Shown piece by piece: positions 2,492 to 12,323 of a DNA stretch of 34,318 bases. The translations under genes and the position numbers were made by a program. The DNA comes from a virus. The stretch spans positions 1-34,318 of the IMG/VR virus record IMGVR_UViG_3300021197_000936. One strand, written 5' to 3'. The notes below the pieces were generated by a model. That model saw only the letters and a program-made list of their open reading frames with translations, made no database searches and was not told the origin of the DNA. Positions within the stretch are counted from its first letter, which is position 1, and the number at the start of each line of letters is the position of its first letter.

Positions 2492-3187
2492 CTACCTCCA
2501 GCACTCCCAGTCCAGAGCAAGCCGGTCGACGGCCATCCGATACCGCTCGGGGTCTATCTCTGCCCCTACGTACTGCCGACCGGTCCGGGCCGCCGCCCTT
2601 GCCGCAGGGCCTAAGCCGCTGAAGAGATCGAGAATTATGTCTCCGGGCTTCGTCCACCTCTCGATCCACTCGGCCATCCACTCGACCGGCTTCTCGGAGT
2701 GCTTCCGCCTCTCGCTCGTGTGGGCGTTCTTGAGAGCCCCCCATTCAGTGCAGAGCCCGGTTCCCTTCACCGACAACTCGACCAACTCACTCGCCCCGAG
2801 CCAGTGGTACCCGGTCCCACCTTGGCCGGCGACCTTATGCCAGGAGCCCCCCGAGACGTACCGCCACCGCCACCGGATCGAGGCTCTCGCCTTGTGCCAG
2901 TCGTCAAGCTTCGGCCAGGTGCACCACATAGCGAGGCGACCCTTCTCCATGGTGTCGAACGCCCGATCGAGAAGCTCGGCGATCTCGACGTCACTCATCG
3001 CGGCGTAGTGGTTCTCGGGGTTCGCGCTGTGTCCGGGCGCTTGCGAGTAGCTCCAGGGCGGATCTGCGATGATGAGCGTCGGCTTCCCCGGCATGTTCTC
3101 GAGAAGCTCATCGCATGAGCAGAGACGGAGGTCGATCCCCGGAGGCTGAGACGGCTCAGGAACCGAGACGAGGGTGAGTTGATTCAT
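2492..3187 (-). CDS. DNA adenine/cytosine-N4 methyltransferase, DPPW type
   Basis: Encodes 231 residues from ATG 3187, which overlaps the previous stop as ATGA and has GGGGGG upstream. The catalytic motif DPPW is at residues 42-45, in the context LIIADPPWSY. The cofactor-binding motif DLFSGLG lies near residues 187-193. Catalytic motif before FxGxG is the order of beta-class amino-methyltransferases such as CcrM; the tryptophan in DPPW also recalls MT-A70-like enzymes. It probably methylates phage DNA, either to evade restriction or to mark it for regulation. No partner restriction gene is seen. Target specificity cannot be read from the sequence; GATC is an interesting candidate because of the GATC clusters in the repeated modules, but that is speculation. 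Confidence 0.88.
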   Translation of the reverse strand: MNQLTLVSVPEPSQPPGIDLRLCSCDELLENMPGKPTLIIADPPWSYSQAPGHSANPENHYAAMSDVEIAELLDRAFDTMEKGRLAMWCTWPKLDDWHKARASIRWRWRYVSGGSWHKVAGQGGTGYHWLGASELVELSVKGTGLCTEWGALKNAHTSERRKHSEKPVEWMAEWIERWTKPGDIILDLFSGLGPAARAAARTGRQYVGAEIDPERYRMAVDRLALDWECWR

Positions 3188-3753
3188 CGCTTGCCCCCCG
3201 GCTTGGACCACCCAGAGACGGCCCGCATCTTTTGAGCGCGCTCGAGCATGGCTTCGAGTTGATCGGGGGTGTTCCGCTCCTGCGTCGTCAGGTGATACCG
3301 CTCGGCGGTCGAGTGGAAGACAGCCTCCGTCCATGGGTTGGACCGCCACGACTCGACGACCTCGTCCCACTGTCGAACGGCGGCCGACTGGAGCGACCGA
3401 CCCTTGACGCAGTCACACGCCGCCGCGTAGCTCTCCGCGCGGACCTTGTTGTTCTTCTCATGCCACCGACATAACTCACGCCAGCCTGTCATATTGCAGG
3501 CCGGACAGCCAGGGAGAGCGGCGGCCGTGACCCTGAGAGGACTCGCTTCGATGGTCGTCTTCAGGCGTGCAAGGTTGGCGATCTTGGGCTGCTTCTGACA
3601 CCACTCCTCCACGCCTCGAATCAGGTCCTTGTCGTGTATGGACGACAGCCCTCGCGACCATAGCTTGAGCGAGGACTCGACCCAGGGGTCGGACTTGCCG
3701 TAATTCTGTGCGAGCGCTTGAAGACAGCGCTTGACTACTGGGATCGATGCCAT
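3184..3753 (-). CDS. putative replication protein with Cys/His cluster (helicase-loader-like)
   Basis: Encodes 189 residues from ATG 3753, preceded by ACACAGGAG. The N-terminal 70 residues are helical with a spacing (W-x2-x-L ... P-x-I/L-A-x-L) that resembles the N-terminal domain of phage helicase loaders and primosome proteins. The middle carries C83-x2-C86, C95-x2-H98 and C113-x-C115, a likely zinc-binding cluster. It overlaps the methyltransferase gene by four bases and follows the initiator-like gene. Initiator plus loader side by side is common in phages without their own helicase, and no DnaB-type helicase or polymerase is visible here. The function is inferred mainly from context. Confidence 0.5.
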   Translation of the reverse strand: MASIPVVKRCLQALAQNYGKSDPWVESSLKLWSRGLSSIHDKDLIRGVEEWCQKQPKIANLARLKTTIEASPLRVTAAALPGCPACNMTGWRELCRWHEKNNKVRAESYAAACDCVKGRSLQSAAVRQWDEVVESWRSNPWTEAVFHSTAERYHLTTQERNTPDQLEAMLERAQKMRAVSGWSKPGGKR

Positions 3754-3768: not shown

Positions 3769-4557
3769 CTATCTCTTGAGGGTGATCAAATTGCCGAGGT
3801 CGTCGAATTGAGCGTCGTCGAACCAGTCCGATCCGCCGATGCCCTGTCCAGGCGTCCAGTCGTTCGACAGGTCGACGTACTCCCGGAGGTTCTTCGCCCG
3901 GAGAAAGGTCGAGTATGAGTATCCACCGCCCCGGAGGAACTCCGCGCGGCTGTCTGAGGACTCCCACCACCAGCGCCACGCCAGGGTGACCGCCTCGCGT
4001 CCGTGTTCGTTCACCCGGACCCGGAGCATGTCTCGCCGGCCTCCAAGCTTTGCCCGGTTCGAGTTGGGCCGAGCCGCGAGACGGATGTCCTCGAGGTCCG
4101 TCCACACCGCCCCGAGGTCGATCCGTTCCGACTTCACCTTTGAAATTGGAACGTCTACTGTCTGGGGATCTGTAGGTGTAGGTGTAGGTGTAGGTGTAGA
4201 TCCGCGCGCGTGATGGCTGAAACCGTCGTCAATTGTGGCCGGTTTCCGGTCGGTCTTGCTCTCTAAGTCCTTGGTATCGTTGGGCTCGGGTGGCCGGTGG
4301 CCGTTCGTGATGAGTGGCCGATCCTGGTTCTCCCACTCTTCGACGTACGCCCTCACCTCTCCGAGGATGCGGTTCGCATGGTACCGGGTCCACCCGGCCC
4401 ACTCCGAGAGCTTCCTCGACGACCAGGCCGAGCCGGACAGGTGCATGTCCAGAGCCACCGAGAAGCCGACGAGGTCCGGCGCGGGGTGGTCCTTGGTCCA
4501 CCTCATGATCAGCGAGTCGAGGATGAGCGCCCTCGGGATGGGTCTCCACTGCTTCAC
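3769..4557 (-). CDS. putative replication initiation protein (winged-helix)
   Basis: Encodes 262 residues from a GTG at 4557 with AGGGGG seven bases upstream; the start overlaps the RusA stop as GTGA. An in-frame ATG at 4584 would overlap RusA further and lacks such a site. Residues of about 20-80 look like a winged helix (SSRKLSEWAGWTRYHANRIL), similar to phage initiators that bind the origin. A low-complexity Thr-Pro linker follows near residue 120. The C-terminal half is Trp- and Arg-rich (AWRWWWE, then a GYSYSTFLR segment), as in many phage replication proteins. Its partner is likely the loader-like protein encoded next. The family is not certain. Confidence 0.6.
   Translation of the reverse strand: MKQWRPIPRALILDSLIMRWTKDHPAPDLVGFSVALDMHLSGSAWSSRKLSEWAGWTRYHANRILGEVRAYVEEWENQDRPLITNGHRPPEPNDTKDLESKTDRKPATIDDGFSHHARGSTPTPTPTPTDPQTVDVPISKVKSERIDLGAVWTDLEDIRLAARPNSNRAKLGGRRDMLRVRVNEHGREAVTLAWRWWWESSDSRAEFLRGGGYSYSTFLRAKNLREYVDLSNDWTPGQGIGGSDWFDDAQFDDLGNLITLKR
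4171..4200 (-). repeat. hexanucleotide tandem repeat encoding a Thr-Pro linker
   Basis: About four to five copies of a six-base unit (GGTGTA on the plus strand) encode alternating Thr-Pro in the initiator-like protein, between its winged-helix and C-terminal parts. Such repeats can change copy number by slippage; each unit adds two residues without shifting the frame. Confidence 0.85.
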
Positions 4558-5051
4558 GGGGTGCCCCCTTGAGCGCTCAGCCACGAGCGAGGGACGAAGA
4601 CAGACACGACGGCGCGAGGCTCGTCGGGTGGTTCAGCGAGTAGCACCTCGCCCCGAGGTATCGCGATCTGACAGTCGTCGACGTAGACGACCCCGTTCAG
4701 CGCGTCCGCTACCGCCTTGTAGACGTTGTCGGCATCTCCCCCGGTGCGCGTCGCCTTGTAGAACGGACCCTTCGGGCCTGTCTTCCGTCGTCGACTCTTC
4801 GGCAAGGGGAACACCCCCAAGACGTCGAGACGGACCGGGACGCCGGCCGGGATCATGGTACGCCCCGCCATCGCAGACACGGCGAAGAGCTTCACGAGGT
4901 CCTCATACGCTCTCGTCTTGTCGTCTGTGTAGGTGTGCGGGCGACCGCGTCGGATGCTGAACCGGGGCCGGCCTTTCGGCTGCGGAACTCCGGGGACGTG
5001 GAACCGGACGAAGGGGACCCACGTCGTCGATGTGCTGGGGAATAGGTGCAT
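4554..5051 (-). CDS. rusA: RusA-family Holliday junction resolvase
   Basis: Encodes 165 residues, slightly longer than E. coli RusA (about 120). RusA cuts four-way junctions to debranch replicating or recombining DNA before packaging. The signature is GGDADN (residues 104-109), KAVADALNG (112-120) and VDDCQIA (124-130). Asp106, Asp108 and Asp125/126 match the metal-binding aspartates. The N-terminal VPGVPQPKGRPRF segment is also typical. Start 5051 is the only ATG after an in-frame stop (TAA); its ribosome-binding site is weak. It lies with the annealase and Gp157-like genes in a recombination block and overlaps the initiator gene. Confidence 0.92.
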   Translation of the reverse strand: MHLFPSTSTTWVPFVRFHVPGVPQPKGRPRFSIRRGRPHTYTDDKTRAYEDLVKLFAVSAMAGRTMIPAGVPVRLDVLGVFPLPKSRRRKTGPKGPFYKATRTGGDADNVYKAVADALNGVVYVDDCQIAIPRGEVLLAEPPDEPRAVVSVFVPRSWLSAQGGTP

Positions 5052-5149: not shown

Positions 5150-5671
5150 TTAGCGGAAGCTGACGGACTTCAGGACGACCACGACCGCGCCGTCGACATC
5201 TTCACCCGATTCGATGATCTTCGAGACCGCCTTCCGGTCGATCTTGGGCTCCCAGGTGATGAAGTCCGAGGCCCTGTTCGAGTGAACAAACCCCTCGACG
5301 TCCGAGATGAGAAGATTCGGGCGCTCGGAGATCCAAACCGTCGACCGATCCGTCTTGATCTTGGACTCTCCTTGAGTCACCTCGTAGCGTTTCAGGAGTT
5401 CGAGCATCTGAAACCGAGCGCGCTCAAGGACCCTCTCGCGGTTCTTTTTCCGAGCCGTAAGTGCGGCGATCTCCTTCTTGTAGAACTCGATCTGAGCCTT
5501 TGCAGACTTGACCACGAAGGCCCACGAGTCCGCCTTGTCCTCGACGTCAGTCGCGAGCCCTTCTAACTCCCGGTCAATTAGTTCGTCGGTGACTCCTTCG
5601 GCCTTCACGAGCCAGTCGATCAGCCCCTCGGCCTCGTCGATGAGTTGCGCTGTCGTCTTCTTCTTGGCCAT
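5150..5671 (-). CDS. siphovirus Gp157-like protein
   Basis: Encodes 173 residues from ATG 5671 with CAGGAGG upstream. Residues of about 20-95 form a long charged coiled coil. They are followed by a beta-rich end (KIKTDRSTVWISERPNLLI) ending in a valine-rich strand, the layout of the Gp157 family (first linked to phage resistance in Streptococcus thermophilus phages and usually found beside recombination genes). The molecular role is not settled; a Gam-like DNA-end-binding or annealase-partner function fits its place between the Erf-type annealase and RusA. A palindrome lies between this gene and the annealase gene. Confidence 0.75.
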   Translation of the reverse strand: MAKKKTTAQLIDEAEGLIDWLVKAEGVTDELIDRELEGLATDVEDKADSWAFVVKSAKAQIEFYKKEIAALTARKKNRERVLERARFQMLELLKRYEVTQGESKIKTDRSTVWISERPNLLISDVEGFVHSNRASDFITWEPKIDRKAVSKIIESGEDVDGAVVVVLKSVSFR

Positions 5672-5745: not shown

Positions 5746-6483
5746 TTAGAACGGGATCTCGCTGTCGTCGTACGGTGGCGCCTCTTGGGTCGGAGGCTCT
5801 TCGGCTGGCTCGTCGACGGCTGTCAGAAAGCGAACGTATGACCACTCCTTCTCGTCGTCACTCTCACCCCATGAGACCCCGACGCGGTCGCCCTTCTCGC
5901 CACCGATCCAGAAGATCGACCCGACGTTCCCCTTCGATGTCCTGACTCGGTCTCCCCTCGAGAAGGTAGCGTCGACGACACCGTTCGCCGGGGCCGCGCT
6001 GCTCTTCTTCGCTGGGGTTGACTTGGTCCGGCGGGGCGGACTCTTGGCTTCTTGGGCGCTGCGCTTCGTGTCGTTCAGTCCGACCCCGTCCTCGTCTCCA
6101 CGCGGGATCAGAAGGAGGTCGCGGAGCGTGTACGACAGGCCAGCGGTGAGCGCTCCGGCGACGGCCTTGTCCATGGGTCGACCCTTCGAGAGCACGGCGG
6201 GCCAGTCTCGGACAATGCTCACCGACTCCGCGCCGCCGAGCGCGATCGTGTGAGTCGCCCGGACGATCATTGTGTCCTCGGCGCATGGGATCAACTCGAC
6301 GTCGCCGGCGGTCAATATCAAGCCAGCCTGATGGAGCACGGCTCGACACTCCGAGATCATGCTCTCGGCGGTGACATAGTCATAATTGTGGAACTCGTTC
6401 CGGCCGTTCTTGTCGATGCCTTCGAGCGCCTGTTGAGCGCTCAAGAGCGCCTCGTGTACTGTCTTCGGTTTTGTGGGTGGCAT
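5746..6483 (-). CDS. erf: Erf-family single-strand annealing recombinase with SH3-like and SSB-type tail
   Basis: Encodes 245 residues from ATG 6483 with AGGAGG upstream; an in-frame ATG at 6516 lies upstream of the ribosome-binding site and is rejected. Erf proteins anneal complementary strands in phage recombination and genome circularisation. Residues 1-125 carry the family pattern (KNGRNEFHNYDYVTAESM at 25-42; GAESVSIVRDWP at 84-95; DKAVAGALTAGLSYTLRDLL at 105-124). A lysine-proline linker (145-165) leads to a small beta-rich domain (175-222, FSRGDRVRTSKGNVGSI), like KOW/SH3 folds. The last ten residues, PPYDDSEIPF, imitate the acidic tip of bacterial SSB, which recruits host repair proteins. 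The tail and extra domain are not part of the minimal Erf fold. Confidence 0.85.
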   Translation of the reverse strand: MPPTKPKTVHEALLSAQQALEGIDKNGRNEFHNYDYVTAESMISECRAVLHQAGLILTAGDVELIPCAEDTMIVRATHTIALGGAESVSIVRDWPAVLSKGRPMDKAVAGALTAGLSYTLRDLLLIPRGDEDGVGLNDTKRSAQEAKSPPRRTKSTPAKKSSAAPANGVVDATFSRGDRVRTSKGNVGSIFWIGGEKGDRVGVSWGESDDEKEWSYVRFLTAVDEPAEEPPTQEAPPYDDSEIPF

Positions 6484-6497
6484 GGTGCCTCCTGTGT

Positions 6498-7352: not shown

Positions 7353-7568
7353 TCAGATGCCGTTCGCGTGGATGAAGTTCTTGTAGAGGTTCGAGCGCGT
7401 GATGATGCTCCGGATCAAGGTGGCCGGGGCCATCCCCATATCCTCGGCGATCCCCTCGACGCTCGTCTTCTCGTTCTCTGTCAGGTAGATCGTCACCTTC
7501 TGATCGTGGCGATCTTCCTTGGCTTTGGCTGGTCGGCCTACTGGGGCCGCTTGCTTCTCGTTACTCAT
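7353..7568 (-). CDS. ribbon-helix-helix DNA-binding protein
   Basis: Encodes 71 residues from ATG 7568 with AAGGAGG upstream. After a basic, AT-hook-like N-terminus (GRPAKAK, 11-17) comes a strand (KVTIYLT, 24-30), a helix (ENEKTSVEGIAEDMG, 31-45), a turn and a second helix (PATLIRSIITRS, 48-59). This is the ribbon-helix-helix plan of CopG/Arc/MetJ repressors, which bind palindromic or tandem half-sites as dimers. It is the only clear small sequence-specific DNA-binding protein in the window, so it is the first candidate to bind the ACGGTT-type operators of the repeated modules. No toxin partner is evident next to it. Confidence 0.75.
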   Translation of the reverse strand: MSNEKQAAPVGRPAKAKEDRHDQKVTIYLTENEKTSVEGIAEDMGMAPATLIRSIITRSNLYKNFIHANGI

Positions 7569-7806
7569 GGTGTCGATCCTCCTTGAATCGGCGATCTCTG
7601 ATCGCTTTTTTGATGGCTTCCTCTATCTCGAGCGGTTCGAGTTCGACCGCTTCTTGAGTCTCAGCGTCGACCGACTTCTCGATCCACCACTGATCCCCGT
7701 CGTCCGGCTCGGGAGGGTACCACCGGCGGGCCTGTCCGGCCTGGTGACCGACTTCGACGTCGATCTCGATGGTCCTCTCGATGGTCACGGTGTGACGTGT
7801 TGACAT
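7561..7806 (-). CDS. small acidic hypothetical protein
   Basis: Encodes 81 residues from ATG 7806 with GAGGTGAGC upstream; the longer in-frame start would overlap the previous gene and is rejected. The N-terminus forms beta strands (HTVTIERTIEIDVEV), then a WYPPEPDDGDQWW turn and a charged C-terminal helix. It overlaps the ribbon-helix-helix gene by eight bases, so the two are probably co-translated. It might be a cofactor or anti-regulator of that protein, but the sequence does not show it. Confidence 0.65.
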   Translation of the reverse strand: MSTRHTVTIERTIEIDVEVGHQAGQARRWYPPEPDDGDQWWIEKSVDAETQEAVELEPLEIEEAIKKAIRDRRFKEDRHHE

Positions 7807-7808
7807 GC

Positions 7809-8336
7809 TCACCTCGGCCCCGGCATCGTGCCGGCGTAGTGTGAGATCCAGGCGTTCTCTTCCTTGCCTTCGGCCGCTTGCTTGAGTTCCCTGCTCTTCT
7901 GAAGGCGCCCGAGGTGGTCTGTCTTGACGAGCTTCCGCTCTTCCTTGGTGAGCCACACTCCCCACATCGGCGGCTCCCCTTCCAAGGTGCCGACACCGAG
8001 ACGCCGAGCGGCGGCCGTGTAGCCCTGCGAGGAGAAGAAGAACTCTGTCGGCCCTCGTCCGCCGAGAAGCGAGGATCGCTCTCTTGAGGGTCGACCCTTC
8101 GAGATCTTCGGGGTCGCTCTTGGGGTGGCCGGTGCGAGCGCGAGGGTCGTCTGAGAGATCACCGGCTGCGGCTTCGGCTGCGGCTCGGGCTCCTTCGGTA
8201 CCATCTCGACGACCTTCGTCGACGTGATCGTCGGGTAGTCTTGGCCGACTTGCATGTCGATCAAGTGCTCGACGGGTGGGTCGTCTGTTACGACGACGGC
8301 TTGGATTGTGATGAGGTAGGTCTTCAAGGTCTTCAC
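7809..8336 (-). CDS. hypothetical protein
   Basis: Encodes 175 residues from a GTG at 8336 with CACAGGAG upstream. The first 45 residues look like a beta-strand domain. They are followed by a proline-rich linker (EPEPQPKPQP) and a basic C-terminal half with a helical, lysine-rich segment (TKEERKLVKTDHLGRLQKS). It lies two bases upstream of the next gene. No family recognised; domain order suggests a two-part adaptor. Confidence 0.65.
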   Translation of the reverse strand: MKTLKTYLITIQAVVVTDDPPVEHLIDMQVGQDYPTITSTKVVEMVPKEPEPQPKPQPVISQTTLALAPATPRATPKISKGRPSRERSSLLGGRGPTEFFFSSQGYTAAARRLGVGTLEGEPPMWGVWLTKEERKLVKTDHLGRLQKSRELKQAAEGKEENAWISHYAGTMPGPR

Positions 8337-8362
8337 GGTGTGCTCCTGTGCTTGTGTGAAGT

Positions 8363-8440
8363 TCAGACGGCCATCAGGCCGACAAGGAGGGCGGTCCAGA
8401 TGAACGCGCCCAAGAGGTCGAAGAGGTCGGTCCGGCTCAT
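8363..8440 (-). CDS. 25-residue membrane microprotein
   Basis: A very short frame, starting at ATG 8440 and ending at 8363, encodes a charged N-terminus (MSRTDLFDLLG) and one hydrophobic segment ending LLVGLMAV. Its start overlaps the stop of the preceding gene as ATGA, the coupling seen at many real junctions here. It fills a gap that is otherwise empty. There is no strong ribosome-binding site of its own, so it would depend on re-initiation. Confidence 0.45.
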   Translation of the reverse strand: MSRTDLFDLLGAFIWTALLVGLMAV

Positions 8441-9003
8441 CGAGCCGGCTCGGTGTAGTACGCGATCACGGCTACCGAATGGACAGACCACCGCTTGCAC
8501 TCTTCGCGAAGTCGTTCGTCGTTGGCCTTGCGGGGCTCACCGACTGGGAGCCACGAGCCCGAGACCCGTCGCACCATAACGATCCCGTGAGTGTGCTCGC
8601 TCGAGGTTGGCTCCGCGAGGAGAGCCGGCTCGGTCACGGTGGGATCGTCGCTCGTGTCCTCGTCGTCGATGTCTTCGACGGGCTCGGGCTGAGATACCGC
8701 CGGCGCGGGGTCTGTGTGGCTCTCTGCTGGCGTGTAGCTACTCGGGCGGACCTTGGCCCCAAGATCGACGAGGAACGGCTTCGAGAGCGTGTTCCGGTCG
8801 ATCTTGAAGAGTCCGAGCCGGCGGCCGGCGTCGAGCACCTCGGCCCATCGGCCGGGGTAGACAGCCGACACACCGAGAAGCGGGGCGGCGTGCTTCTTGT
8901 AGCGGTCAACGTGGAGCCGGCGGTTCGAGGTCGCGCGTCGTTGCCTGAGCGCGACCAGGACCGCTCGAGCGGCGGCGTCGTAGTGTTGTTGGGTGATCTT
9001 CAT
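8437..9003 (-). CDS. hypothetical protein, second gene of cassette A
   Basis: Encodes 188 residues. ATG 9003 is chosen because AGGAGGACGAG lies directly upstream and because the in-frame upstream extension would cross the GC hairpin. Residues 1-90 are basic and helical, possibly a winged-helix-like fold (RWAEVLDAGRRLGLFKIDRN). An acidic linker (EDIDDEDTSDDP) and a short beta-rich C-terminal domain follow. The 47 bases covering its hairpin leader and start codon are identical to those before the gene starting at 10440, though the two proteins are unrelated. Confidence 0.7.
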   Translation of the reverse strand: MKITQQHYDAAARAVLVALRQRRATSNRRLHVDRYKKHAAPLLGVSAVYPGRWAEVLDAGRRLGLFKIDRNTLSKPFLVDLGAKVRPSSYTPAESHTDPAPAVSQPEPVEDIDDEDTSDDPTVTEPALLAEPTSSEHTHGIVMVRRVSGSWLPVGEPRKANDERLREECKRWSVHSVAVIAYYTEPAR

Positions 9004-9045
9004 CTCGTCCTCCTGTGTGATGGACTGGCCCCCCGGAGGGGGCCG
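8999..9045. repeat. 47-bp direct repeat, copy 1 (hairpin plus ribosome-binding leader)
   Basis: Identical to 10436-10482. It holds the hairpin GGCCCCC (9027-9033)/GGGGGCC (9038-9044) and, on the minus strand, a CACACAGGAGGACGAG leader and the ATG of the downstream gene. In minus-strand RNA the loop is UCCG closed by C-G, a UNCG tetraloop. It begins 13 bases after the stop of the gene at 9057-9440, so it may both end or protect that message and lead into the next. Confidence 0.9.
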
Positions 9046-9056
9046 GGTGGGTGTTC

Positions 9057-9440
9057 TTATGCGCGGCGGTTCGAGAGACGGGCTTGACGGCGCGCTTCTC
9101 GGCGTGCTGCTTTCCGGATGTCGCGCTCTTCTTGGCTCAGTGAAAGCCAAAGCTCGAGCGCGGCTTTCTCAGCGGCAATCGACGCTGATGTTCGGATCCG
9201 ACTGATCGCGGCGGTGAGGACGCGCTTCTCGGTTCCGGTAGCCACTGAGCGCGCCGCCGTCATAACGGTGTGGATCTTGTCCCATCCGTCTTGGCTCGTC
9301 TCGTAGGCGAGACGGCTGTAGTGTCCCGCCTCGACGGTGCGGTCTCTGAGGCTTACGCCGGCCATCCGTGCCGCCATCGTTACAAAACACGATGCGCTGT
9401 CGGTGAAGTCGTTTCGGATGATGTTCTTGTCGTTGTTCAT
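9057..9440 (-). CDS. hypothetical protein, first gene of cassette A
   Basis: Encodes 127 residues from ATG 9440, preceded by CACACAGGACAACGAC. The open frame continues upstream to 9599, but that part is the promoter module and is rejected as coding. The protein is helical, with a strongly basic C-terminus (KAARREARRQARLSNRRA), suggesting nucleic-acid or ribosome contact. It is driven by module A (9473-9620) and followed by the GC hairpin. No family recognised. Confidence 0.75.
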   Translation of the reverse strand: MNNDKNIIRNDFTDSASCFVTMAARMAGVSLRDRTVEAGHYSRLAYETSQDGWDKIHTVMTAARSVATGTEKRVLTAAISRIRTSASIAAEKAALELWLSLSQEERDIRKAARREARRQARLSNRRA

Positions 9441-9472
9441 GTCGTTGTCCTGTGTGTGGCCGGGGTGCATCC

Positions 9473-9620
9473 CCTTGGCTCTCCTGTAGAGTAATCGACC
9501 GTTGTAAACCGTGCAAGCAAACCAGCGCAAGACGATCACACGATCGAGAGACGTCCATTGATTAGACAAGATCCGCGAAGAGGGGATCGCGACGATCATC
9601 CCGTGGCGCGAATGGCGTTT
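9473..9620 (-). promoter_or_regulatory. repeated regulatory module, copy A
   Basis: Facing left, it contains TTGCAC (9516-9511), a 17-base spacer and TACTCT (9493-9488). The operator ACGGTT-TAC-AACGGT (9512-9498) lies mainly in the spacer and overlaps the -35 box. Upstream are GATC sites at 9534, 9542, 9570, 9585 and 9594, the box GAGACGT, and a distal CCCGTGGCGCG edge. It aligns over its length with copy B (10847-10993), with GATC spacings of 8-28-15-9 against 8-28-14-9. The leader forms a small hairpin, GGGG-ATGCA-CCCC (9474-9462). The distal part overlaps the last codons of the upstream gene. Confidence 0.85.
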
Positions 9621-10440
9621 CGAGTCCTCGCCCCCTGTAGTTCTCGAGCTTCTTCAGTAGCTCCCACCGGCGATCACGCAGGGCGAGTATCTGCCGAGCG
9701 GCTTCGGCTTTGCTCGCCACCTGCTCCGGCTTCGGTGGGTCCCATCCCCAGAGCCAGTGAAGGCGCTCGAGCCGGCGGGCCATCGAGACGCGATTCGGTC
9801 CGTTCCACTCCTTGAGGAGCCGCATCACCTGAGGCTGTCCTCGGCTGCTCCCGGTCGGGGAGTACCATCCGAGAACATGCTCGGCGAAGTTGTACGGATT
9901 CGAGAAGCCGGCCTCTGTGAACTGATCCGAGTCCTGGAGGATCGACGTGTGGTCTCGCCGATCGTAGTGTCTCCAGTCCTCCGACCACTCACCGCGGCCG
10001 ATCTTGAGGGTGTACCATCGATCCCAGATCCGGCGCTTGTCCTGCTTCCACAGACCCGGAGCTTCCAAGAGGTCGAGCACCTTCCACGGCTCGACGAAGT
10101 TCTTCAAGCCCCACTCGAGCGCGGTCTCTTCCTGCTTCGTGTCGACGCCGATCTTCCTCAGACATCGATCGCAGATCGTGAACCGATTCGGAAGGCCGCC
10201 CCACAAGGGCGACGCGCTGATTCGATCGTCTCGACATATGGGACCGATCTCGAAATTGTCGTACGGATCGTAGGGGTCCTCGGTCAAGTGAAAGCTGTCG
10301 TGACTGTGTCCGACGTTGTTCCCGCCGAGACCTCGGTCGGTATCGCCATCGAGCCACGTCGCCAACTTCGGCAAGGCTTCCGCCGCCCACTCCGACGGGT
10401 GCGGTCTGTCTGCCCATTCTCCTGTGATGTCGAATTTCAT
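9562..10440 (-). CDS. hypothetical protein, second gene of cassette B
   Basis: Encodes 292 residues from ATG 10440, with AGGAGGACGAG upstream in the 47-bp repeat; the frame continues upstream through the hairpin but that extension is rejected. It is rich in Trp and charged residues. There is a possible metal site (GPICRDD near 66-72 and ICDRCLRKIG near 89-98). The C-terminal half is helical (KPEQVASKAEAARQILALRDRRWELLKK). The last twenty or so codons lie inside module A, so its C-terminus seems to be made of regulatory DNA. No family recognised. Confidence 0.7.
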   Translation of the reverse strand: MKFDITGEWADRPHPSEWAAEALPKLATWLDGDTDRGLGGNNVGHSHDSFHLTEDPYDPYDNFEIGPICRDDRISASPLWGGLPNRFTICDRCLRKIGVDTKQEETALEWGLKNFVEPWKVLDLLEAPGLWKQDKRRIWDRWYTLKIGRGEWSEDWRHYDRRDHTSILQDSDQFTEAGFSNPYNFAEHVLGWYSPTGSSRGQPQVMRLLKEWNGPNRVSMARRLERLHWLWGWDPPKPEQVASKAEAARQILALRDRRWELLKKLENYRGRGLETPFAPRDDRRDPLFADLV

Positions 10441-10482
10441 CTCGTCCTCCTGTGTGATGGACTGGCCCCCCGGAGGGGGCCG
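10436..10482. repeat. 47-bp direct repeat, copy 2 (hairpin plus ribosome-binding leader)
   Basis: Identical to 8999-9045. The hairpin here is GGCCCCC (10464-10470) with GGGGGCC (10475-10481). It begins about ten bases after the stop at 10491 and ends in the start codon of the 292-residue gene. Exact identity across non-coding bases implies recent duplication or recombination between the two cassettes. Confidence 0.9.
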
Positions 10483-10490
10483 CGGGGTCG

Positions 10491-10838
10491 TTACGCTGCG
10501 ACCCGCCAGCGACGGCGGGCCCATGTCGCGACGTGTTGCTCGGCTTCGGCGAGGGTGTCGAATTCGCGCGTCCTGACGGCGCCTCCGTGGCTGCTGACTC
10601 CCTTCGTCGTGACCACGAAGACCGACCGCCCTCGGTAGTCGGTGGGGGTGCGTCCGGTCCACCGGGTTCCGATAGAGGCGCGGACCGACGAGCGGTCCTT
10701 CGTTCCGGGGTCACGGCCTGACAGGCTCGAGGCGTCGATGACGTGGGTCCCGGTCGGCTCGGTGATCCGGTACTGGCGAGCGGGTCCGTGGTGGTTGAAG
10801 TTCGAGGTCCATCCGAATCGGGCGGGGCGGGTTGTCAT
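10491..10838 (-). CDS. hypothetical protein, first gene of cassette B
   Basis: Encodes 115 residues from ATG 10838 with AAGGAGAACAAG upstream. It is basic, with predicted strands through the middle and a C-terminal helix (DTLAEAEQHVATWARRRW). No membrane segment or known motif. It is driven by module B (10847-10993) and followed by the 47-bp hairpin repeat. Not similar to the first gene of cassette A, although the flanking DNA is. Confidence 0.7.
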   Translation of the reverse strand: MTTRPARFGWTSNFNHHGPARQYRITEPTGTHVIDASSLSGRDPGTKDRSSVRASIGTRWTGRTPTDYRGRSVFVVTTKGVSSHGGAVRTREFDTLAEAEQHVATWARRRWRVAA

Positions 10839-10846
10839 CTTGTTCT

Positions 10847-10993
10847 CCTTGGTTCTCTCGTAGAGTAATCTACCGTTCTAAACCGTGCAAGCGAATCGAC
10901 ACGACACGATCACCCGATCGAGAGACGTCTATTGATTAGAGGCGATCGCCTACGGGGGATCATGACGATCACCCCGTGGCGCGCGCGTCGTTT
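10847..10993 (-). promoter_or_regulatory. repeated regulatory module, copy B
   Basis: Facing left: TTGCAC (10890-10885), 17-base spacer, TACTCT (10867-10862), operator ACGGTT-TAG-AACGGT (10886-10872). GATC sites lie at 10908, 10916, 10944, 10958 and 10967. The GAGACGT box and the distal edge CGATCACCCCGTGGCGCG are present. In the minus-strand reading the operator is a direct repeat of ACGGT with a ten-base period, i.e. one helical turn. The leader is CTCTACGAGAGAACCAAGGAG. The module ends exactly at the stop of the 443-residue gene upstream. Confidence 0.85.
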
Positions 10994-12323
10994 ATCGGGC
11001 GGCCGGGACGGCGACCTCGAGGGTCCTGGCCAGCATGATCACCCGAGCCCGGTCGGTGTACCGCTGGAGATACGCGCTGTCTTCGTTCATCTCGACGAGG
11101 ATGTCGTCGGCCTCCTGAGTGTCCAGAAGGTCGAAGCCGCGACCGTCTCCGGTGTGCATGGCTCCGAACTCGAGGACGTACTTCAAGACGTCGTCGTCGG
11201 CCATGTCCTCGGGGCTCGGGCGGTGGTCTCCGCTGACGTACTCCGCGACCTGGGCCCAGAACTCGCCCTCGCCCATGTCGTGGTCGAGGTACGCCTTCAC
11301 CTGTCCGAGGTGCTTCATCGACTCGATCCGCTCACACTCCGCGTCGATGCTTGAGCCGTCGGGAACATTCCACGCGCCGTCGTTGTAGTGGTGCCGACGG
11401 AACCCGGAAACCTGAGCGAGGAACTTCGAGAAGTCGATCTCGATGTCTCCGCAGAGCGTGTCGAGATGCTCTTGATCGTCCGCGCTTATGACGAGCCCGC
11501 CCGCGCCCTCGTCGCTGATGCTTCCCGATAGAATAGCCTCGATCGATTGAACCATGAACTCGCCGAGCTTGACTTCTTCGCGATCGATGGGCTGGTTCTC
11601 GTCGTCGATCTGACATCCTGCGTCGTCGAACTCGGTGAGCTTGCCTTGGACGTAGGCGAGAACACACTCAAGATCGCCTCTCATCTTGTGCTCGCGGGCT
11701 GTCATGGGCTCGACAGTGGTCTCGGTGGGCTCGACCTCTGCGACGTCCTGAGCGGGCTCCTGAGCCTTCTCCTCGGCGAGCTTCTTCGCGGCGGTGGCGT
11801 GATAGTGGTCCCAGTCGGCGGCCTTCTCCTCGGCGAGCTTCTTCGCGGCGGTGGCTACTTGGTCGCGGTAGTCGGCGTGGAGAGCCTCGTCGACATAGGC
11901 GAGATAGTCGGCGATCATGTTGTGGATGTCGAGCTTGAGTGACTTCTTCGCCTCCACAGTCCAAGAACCCGGACCCGGCTCAAAGTGATCTTTGTGAATC
12001 GAGAACGTTGTCGGATAATGTTCCGATGCCTCGGCCCATTCAGCGAAGGTTTGTACACAATTCGCGCGGCGGCCGATGAGCTTCCCGAATTTCTCCATCG
12101 AGGAGTCGGAGACAGAGGCGCTGTAGCCCCAGATCCAGCCGTGAGCGCGGCCAAAGGCCCTACCCGTCTTGATGCTCGCTACGTTGAAGCGCCAACTCGA
12201 GGTGCCCTTCTTGAGGTCAACGACGACAGTCATGTCTGCGTCGGGCACGTTGATCCTGTCGTAGTTCAAGATCTTGACTTGAGAGAAGGAGGTGAGAAGG
12301 GCGGAGAAGGAATCAATGCTCAT
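10992..12323 (-). CDS. large acidic hypothetical protein of cassette C
   Basis: Encodes 443 residues from ATG 12323, preceded by CACACAGGACAACAAC. Residues 1-140 look like a mixed alpha/beta domain. The middle (about 155-195) is a charged helix with a duplicated AAKKLAEEKA motif, probably a coiled coil. The C-terminal 220 residues are strongly acidic and helical. No catalytic motif was recognised. It is the largest cassette gene and has its own module (12361-12520). Acidity could suit DNA mimicry or binding of a basic host protein, but that is only a suggestion. Confidence 0.8.
   Translation of the reverse strand: MSIDSFSALLTSFSQVKILNYDRINVPDADMTVVVDLKKGTSSWRFNVASIKTGRAFGRAHGWIWGYSASVSDSSMEKFGKLIGRRANCVQTFAEWAEASEHYPTTFSIHKDHFEPGPGSWTVEAKKSLKLDIHNMIADYLAYVDEALHADYRDQVATAAKKLAEEKAADWDHYHATAAKKLAEEKAQEPAQDVAEVEPTETTVEPMTAREHKMRGDLECVLAYVQGKLTEFDDAGCQIDDENQPIDREEVKLGEFMVQSIEAILSGSISDEGAGGLVISADDQEHLDTLCGDIEIDFSKFLAQVSGFRRHHYNDGAWNVPDGSSIDAECERIESMKHLGQVKAYLDHDMGEGEFWAQVAEYVSGDHRPSPEDMADDDVLKYVLEFGAMHTGDGRGFDLLDTQEADDILVEMNEDSAYLQRYTDRARVIMLARTLEVAVPAAR
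11764..11855 (-). repeat. 35-bp direct repeat within the 443-residue gene
   Basis: The 35 bases at 11764-11798 recur unchanged at 11821-11855. They encode AxxAAKKLAEEKA twice, separated by a short DWDHYH segment. Identical codon use shows recent duplication; it keeps the frame and lengthens a predicted coiled coil. Confidence 0.85.

Follow-up and report, generated by a model that had tools for sequence, protein, structure and literature searches.

A predicted Erf-family annealase with an SSB-type C-terminal tip in a virus contig

The erf gene and its module

The window analysed here, meaning the whole stretch of 34,318 bases, is a linear-class IMG/VR virus contig and may thus be a fragment. 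It contains a minus-strand gene whose ATG lies at 6483 and whose stop is at 5746, with a product of 245 aa, while the plus strand of 5746-6483 is broken by stops. The first-pass annotation, made from the sequence alone, had placed the gene at the right coordinates, the coding strand being the minus one. From its N-terminus on, the protein consists of an Erf annealase core, a basic linker and a small barrel, after which an acidic linker leads to the end PPYDDSEIPF. The features of the gene and its surroundings are the following:

6488..6493, minus strand: likely ribosome binding site AGGAGG, read by eye
6070..6483, minus strand: Erf annealase core, residues 1-138, from Pfam, PHROGs and the model
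5983..6069, minus strand: basic linker, residues 139-167, net charge +7, from sequence, charge count and low pLDDT
5818..5982, minus strand: small barrel, residues 168-222, probably SH3/Tudor/KOW-like, from a weak CAP-Gly match, the model and fold neighbours
5782..5817, minus strand: fast-changing acidic linker, residues 223-234, 3/12 residues identical in the close relative
5749..5781, minus strand: SSB-type C-terminal tip APPYDDSEIPF, residues 235-245, 10/11 identical in the close relative
5150..5671, minus strand: Gp157/Mu Gam-like protein, next gene after erf (PF05565 E 8.5e-20; phrog_253 E 1e-17)
4554..5051, minus strand: RusA Holliday junction resolvase, same module (PF05866 E 2.4e-20; phrog_140 E 1.1e-30)
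2492-3370, minus strand: N6_N4/MT-A70-type DNA methyltransferase of the early gene block, from family searches
7809-12323, minus strand: early-gene run, no convincing family match among those scanned

The surroundings of erf are those of an ordinary recombination and replication module. Two further module proteins, encoded downstream of erf in the same orientation, match no family above the cut-off and are taken as replication proteins by their position; the methyltransferase gene lies on that side of erf and in that orientation too. The Gp157/Gam-like and RusA genes give the protein the same recombination-module setting as other Erf single-strand annealing proteins. The accessible text of a survey of Firmicutes phages puts the share of erf genes lying next to ssb at almost 80% and names Gam or Gp157 genes as frequent neighbours of erf (PMC8093625). 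Its missing ssb aside, the module of the window is thus a familiar one. No convincing family match was obtained for the early genes at 7561-7836, 7809-8336, 8437-9009, 9057-9449, 9562-10440, 10491-10838 and 10992-12323. Pfam or PHROGs scans of 16 window proteins matched no exonuclease family. The terminase matches are scattered over many hosts and gave no host inference. At a separate Erf locus, an ORF (L126:3707-4726) encodes a PD-(D/E)XK nuclease (PF12705 E 2.2e-17) with the looser SSB-like end DKYSTDAPF.

Core, linker and barrel of the protein

The assignment to the Erf family, already proposed in the first-pass annotation, was borne out by matches to PF04404 over residues 10-149 (E 2.5e-11, 44.2 bits against a curated cut-off of 25) and to phrog_155 over residues 3-150 (E 4e-16). 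Searches of the protein against Pfam, PHROGs, NCBIfam and PADLOC returned no family other than Erf, and a PDB sequence search with the whole protein found no relative, giving three chance-level matches. Structure prediction, proposed earlier as a check, yielded a RAD52-like fold for the core in a model built from 22 aligned Erfs, in which residues 1-130 reach a pLDDT of about 90. The top solved match of this core is human RAD52 (Foldseek E 1.9e-4, probability 1.00), with TM-scores that are low over the whole model, and models of viral Erfs match it down to E 7.7e-12. On sequence and model, the 245-aa protein is an Erf-family annealase with a RAD52-like core, sharing its core domain with the Erf single-strand annealing proteins of PF04404 and phrog_155, and its annealing activity is predicted.

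The small barrel that follows the basic linker had been described as a KOW/SH3-like domain, a description that is plausible. Residues 168-222 match no curated Pfam family, KOW and SH3 included, and the best sequence hint is a weak one (E 0.11) to CAP-Gly, which has an SH3-like fold. When the C-terminal part (barrel and tail, two sequences) was modelled alone, a small barrel was obtained with moderate confidence, with a pLDDT of 70-80 over fragment residues 11-60; of five models, the best has a mean of 67.6. The structures closest to this barrel are Spt5 and NusG KOW and Tudor domains, with Z up to 7.6, a range below 8 in which the tool cautions that matches may be mere common arrangements. Foldseek alone returned UvrD/PcrA Tudor domains and others, all weak (best E 0.039). 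An SH3-like fold is thus our best guess, plausible at moderate confidence.

Contrary to the core, the barrel sets this protein apart from other Erfs, having been found in the window Erf and one relative only. A PDB sequence search with it found no relative, a search of viral contigs detected it in one orthologue and no further contig, and the named phages gave no credible match. Two other Erfs (L047:4866-6062 and L023:5636-6634) are extended at the C-terminus by a stretch which, judged by eye, resembles a small beta barrel; that of L047 matched no family.

The SSB-type tip and its distribution

Enzymes of repair and replication dock on the tips of SSBs. The first-pass annotation had read the C-terminus of the window Erf, PPYDDSEIPF, as an imitation of such a tip, and this reading is supported by the sequence itself, by conservation and by recurrence on other Erfs. 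Acidic residues are followed by an aliphatic residue, proline and phenylalanine at the free C-terminus, and the end of Escherichia coli SSB is PMDFDDDIPF, as given in the accessible text of PMC4118853. As in bacterial-type SSBs (PF00436), an acidic end finishing in I-P-F is carried by a flexible, fast-changing linker; contrary to them, the tip of the window sits on an annealase, with no Pfam match to the SSB OB-fold (PF00436) at E up to 1.

The only close relative in the viral contigs searched, L002, encodes an Erf that is 75% identical and ends in PPYDDAEIPF. Between the two proteins, 10/11 tip residues are the same, whereas only 3/12 are in the preceding linker (Fisher p 0.003), all in a single pairwise comparison in which no more than 2/11 tip codons differ. 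A tip kept amid a diverging linker is the pattern expected of a constrained docking peptide, and at the level of sequence it looks real.

To place this tip among Erfs, loci were drawn from viral contigs, genome contigs, one named phage and 377 genomes, resulting in 168 distinct, stop-terminated Erf ORFs, which form 82 clusters at 60% identity. A strict SSB-type tip is found in four of the 168: those of the window, L002, L093 (= L205; MDDDDIPF) and L046 (TTEDMPF). Seven of the 168 end in PF. The strict tip of the window Erf is therefore absent from 164/168 Erf ORFs, as it is from all 11 Erfs read from named phages. Likewise tip-less are the Erfs found at five places in 195 Myxococcota genomes; four of these have a stop, and one of the four was part of the set. 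In a tree built from 29 Erf cores, strict tips stand at three places and at least three changes of state are required; a single origin of the tips of the window pair and L093 was not rejected (p-AU 0.17).

An acidic, proline-rich tail could happen to end in IPF, and the rarity of tips among Erfs, together with their conservation in one orthologue pair only, would fit such a chance likeness. We consider this very unlikely, given that the tip was kept while its linker diverged and that chance tips are scarce: under a slightly wider tip rule, 1/8408 opposite-strand ORFs within 4 kb of Erf genes carries one, and at this rate the binomial chance of 3/82 Erf clusters is 1.5e-7, opposite-strand ORFs being an imperfect control. 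Among same-strand non-Erf ORFs, the same wider rule finds 25/7181 once SSB matches are left aside.

No SSB of the PF00436 type occurs in the record of the window or in that of L002, and a PHROGs scan of 16 window proteins gave no SSB. The earlier remark that the window lacks a phage SSB is confirmed to this extent, for a record that is possibly a fragment; since PF00436 detects bacterial-type SSBs only, another kind of phage SSB could be missed. In the records of the window, L002, L093 and L046, no ORF other than the Erf was found to have an SSB-type end. In other Erf phages, the tip was found on the SSB (27/31 distinct SSB ends in the collected loci finish in PF or PW) or on a small protein encoded close to erf. 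Such a small ORF, near erf and on the same strand, occurs in several loci where no SSB was recognised:

L111:5734-6000, L118:5937-6215 and L121:5954-6217, strand of erf: small tip-bearing ORFs of about 90 residues, no recognised SSB domain
L123:5666-5944, L176:6786-7061 and L211:5727-5993, strand of erf: small tip-bearing ORFs of about 90 residues, no recognised SSB domain
L332:2214-2474, strand of erf: small tip-bearing protein of Microcystis phage Mae-JY35, 86 aa, right after erf

These proteins may be miniature SSBs. One of the six tested has a weak DUF736 match (E 0.0049). They resemble the C-terminal part of the window Erf in joining a small domain to an SSB-type tip within an erf module; contrary to it, they are separate genes. 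A fusion of one of them as the source of barrel and tip found no support, as the profile comparison aligns 14 tip columns only, with a probability of 8.6.

It had also been suggested that the annealase perhaps replaces a phage SSB, for which no more than a trend was seen. When either a PF00436 SSB or a further tip ORF on the same strand as erf is counted as a partner, whole records with a PF-ending Erf have a partner in 0/6 cases, versus 22/45 records with other Erfs (p = 0.03). This trend weakens to p 0.06 (0/5), 0.12 (0/4) and 0.24 (0/3) under stricter record counts, and within 4 kb the difference is not significant for either strict tips (0/4 vs 43/114, p 0.30) or loose ones (0/6 vs 43/114, p 0.09). 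The partners are PF00436 SSBs in 19/45 records, their ends not read one by one, and other tip ORFs in 3/26 SSB-less records; a candidate tip ORF of G406, on the strand opposite erf, was dropped. The comparison covers 50 records hand-picked from 156 loci with distinct Erfs, mostly from one scan, with gaps at the record ends of G428 (last 13.4 kb), G431 (1.3 kb) and G397, G405, G417 and G421 (under 1 kb). Moreover, 23/45 records with a tip-less Erf show no SSB-type partner, and the tip is therefore not a general requirement. At most, these sequences suggest a change in the location of the tip.

Possible roles of the tip

Phage modules that depend on an SSB tip have a precedent in HK620, whose Sak4 requires the NDYPPF end of its SSB (accessible text of PMC5928155), and the accessible text of PMC10711431 reports that the seven C-terminal residues of SSB are recognised by RecT annealases. 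As far as these accessible texts go, the SSB tip matters to annealase function in RecT/Redbeta and Sak4 as it would here; however, in those systems the tip is on the SSB and is read by the annealase, whereas in the window the annealase itself bears it. No title or abstract was found on an annealase displaying rather than reading the tip, in a search outside which most subscription papers fall.

Our best reading, to which we give roughly even weight on the basis of the sequence evidence, is that the Erf tip recruits host SSB-interacting proteins to phage DNA. The first-pass interpretation, in which the annealase itself would call in host repair factors, is on balance supported in part. The annealase would bear its own copy of the SSB docking peptide on a flexible acidic tail, and an Erf oligomer bound to single-stranded phage DNA or to annealed joints would display many such tips. 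These would draw host SSB-interacting proteins to the phage genome for recombination-dependent replication and repair, with the Erf either standing in for an SSB or working alongside one. The SSB-interacting proteins include RecO, PriA, RecQ, ExoI, RecJ, primase and chi. In other Erf phages, docking would be provided by a phage SSB, by a small tip-bearing protein near erf or by the host SSB, and the SH3-like barrel may add a further DNA or protein contact. The binding of SSB partners by the tip, their identity, the role of the barrel and the replacement of an SSB are all points that we infer.

The phage annealases known so far are readers of the SSB tip, a property that contributes to their recombineering host range. 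An annealase that shows the tip, if true, would load host repair enzymes directly and might function without a matching SSB, and the removal of a few tip residues would be a clean test of the role of tip recruitment in phage recombination. A broader proposal, which we regard as rather unlikely, is that the SSB tip is a portable peptide of the Erf module, carried by the SSB, the ~90-residue protein or the annealase. In the window, it would turn the annealase into a loading platform that self-loads host nucleases and mediators, such as RecJ or ExoI, forming a hybrid phage-host exonuclease-annealase pair.

The main rivals to recruitment are autoregulation and the docking of a phage partner. In the first, the acidic tail would fold onto the basic linker or the DNA groove of the same annealase, tuning DNA binding, cooperativity or release. 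One chain does combine a basic linker of net charge +7 with an acidic tail (net -5 and -3), both tail and linker were modelled at low confidence, as if flexible, and acidic tails work in this way in SSB, according to the accessible text of PMC5928155, and in Hfq. However, autoregulation requires charge rather than a fixed end, and what is kept is the SSB-specific set of acidic residues, isoleucine or another aliphatic residue, proline and final phenylalanine; we hold autoregulation to be rather unlikely. Far less probable still is a decoy role, in which the tip would shield phage DNA by filling the pockets with which host nucleases or defence proteins bind SSB: the same sequence evidence would fit it, and an oligomer would presumably present many tips, but fusion to an annealase would be unnecessary for this purpose.

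The tip could instead dock a phage protein, such as the Gp157/Gam-like protein, RusA or the replication proteins of the module, which we find unlikely. Firmicutes phages, too, have Gam or Gp157 genes next to erf, according to the same partly accessible survey (PMC8093625), and the named phages with a Gam-like gene adjoining erf have tip-less Erfs. In favour of such a partner, the Gp157/Gam-like gene follows erf in both the window and L002, and the ORF after erf in L093 looks similar by eye.
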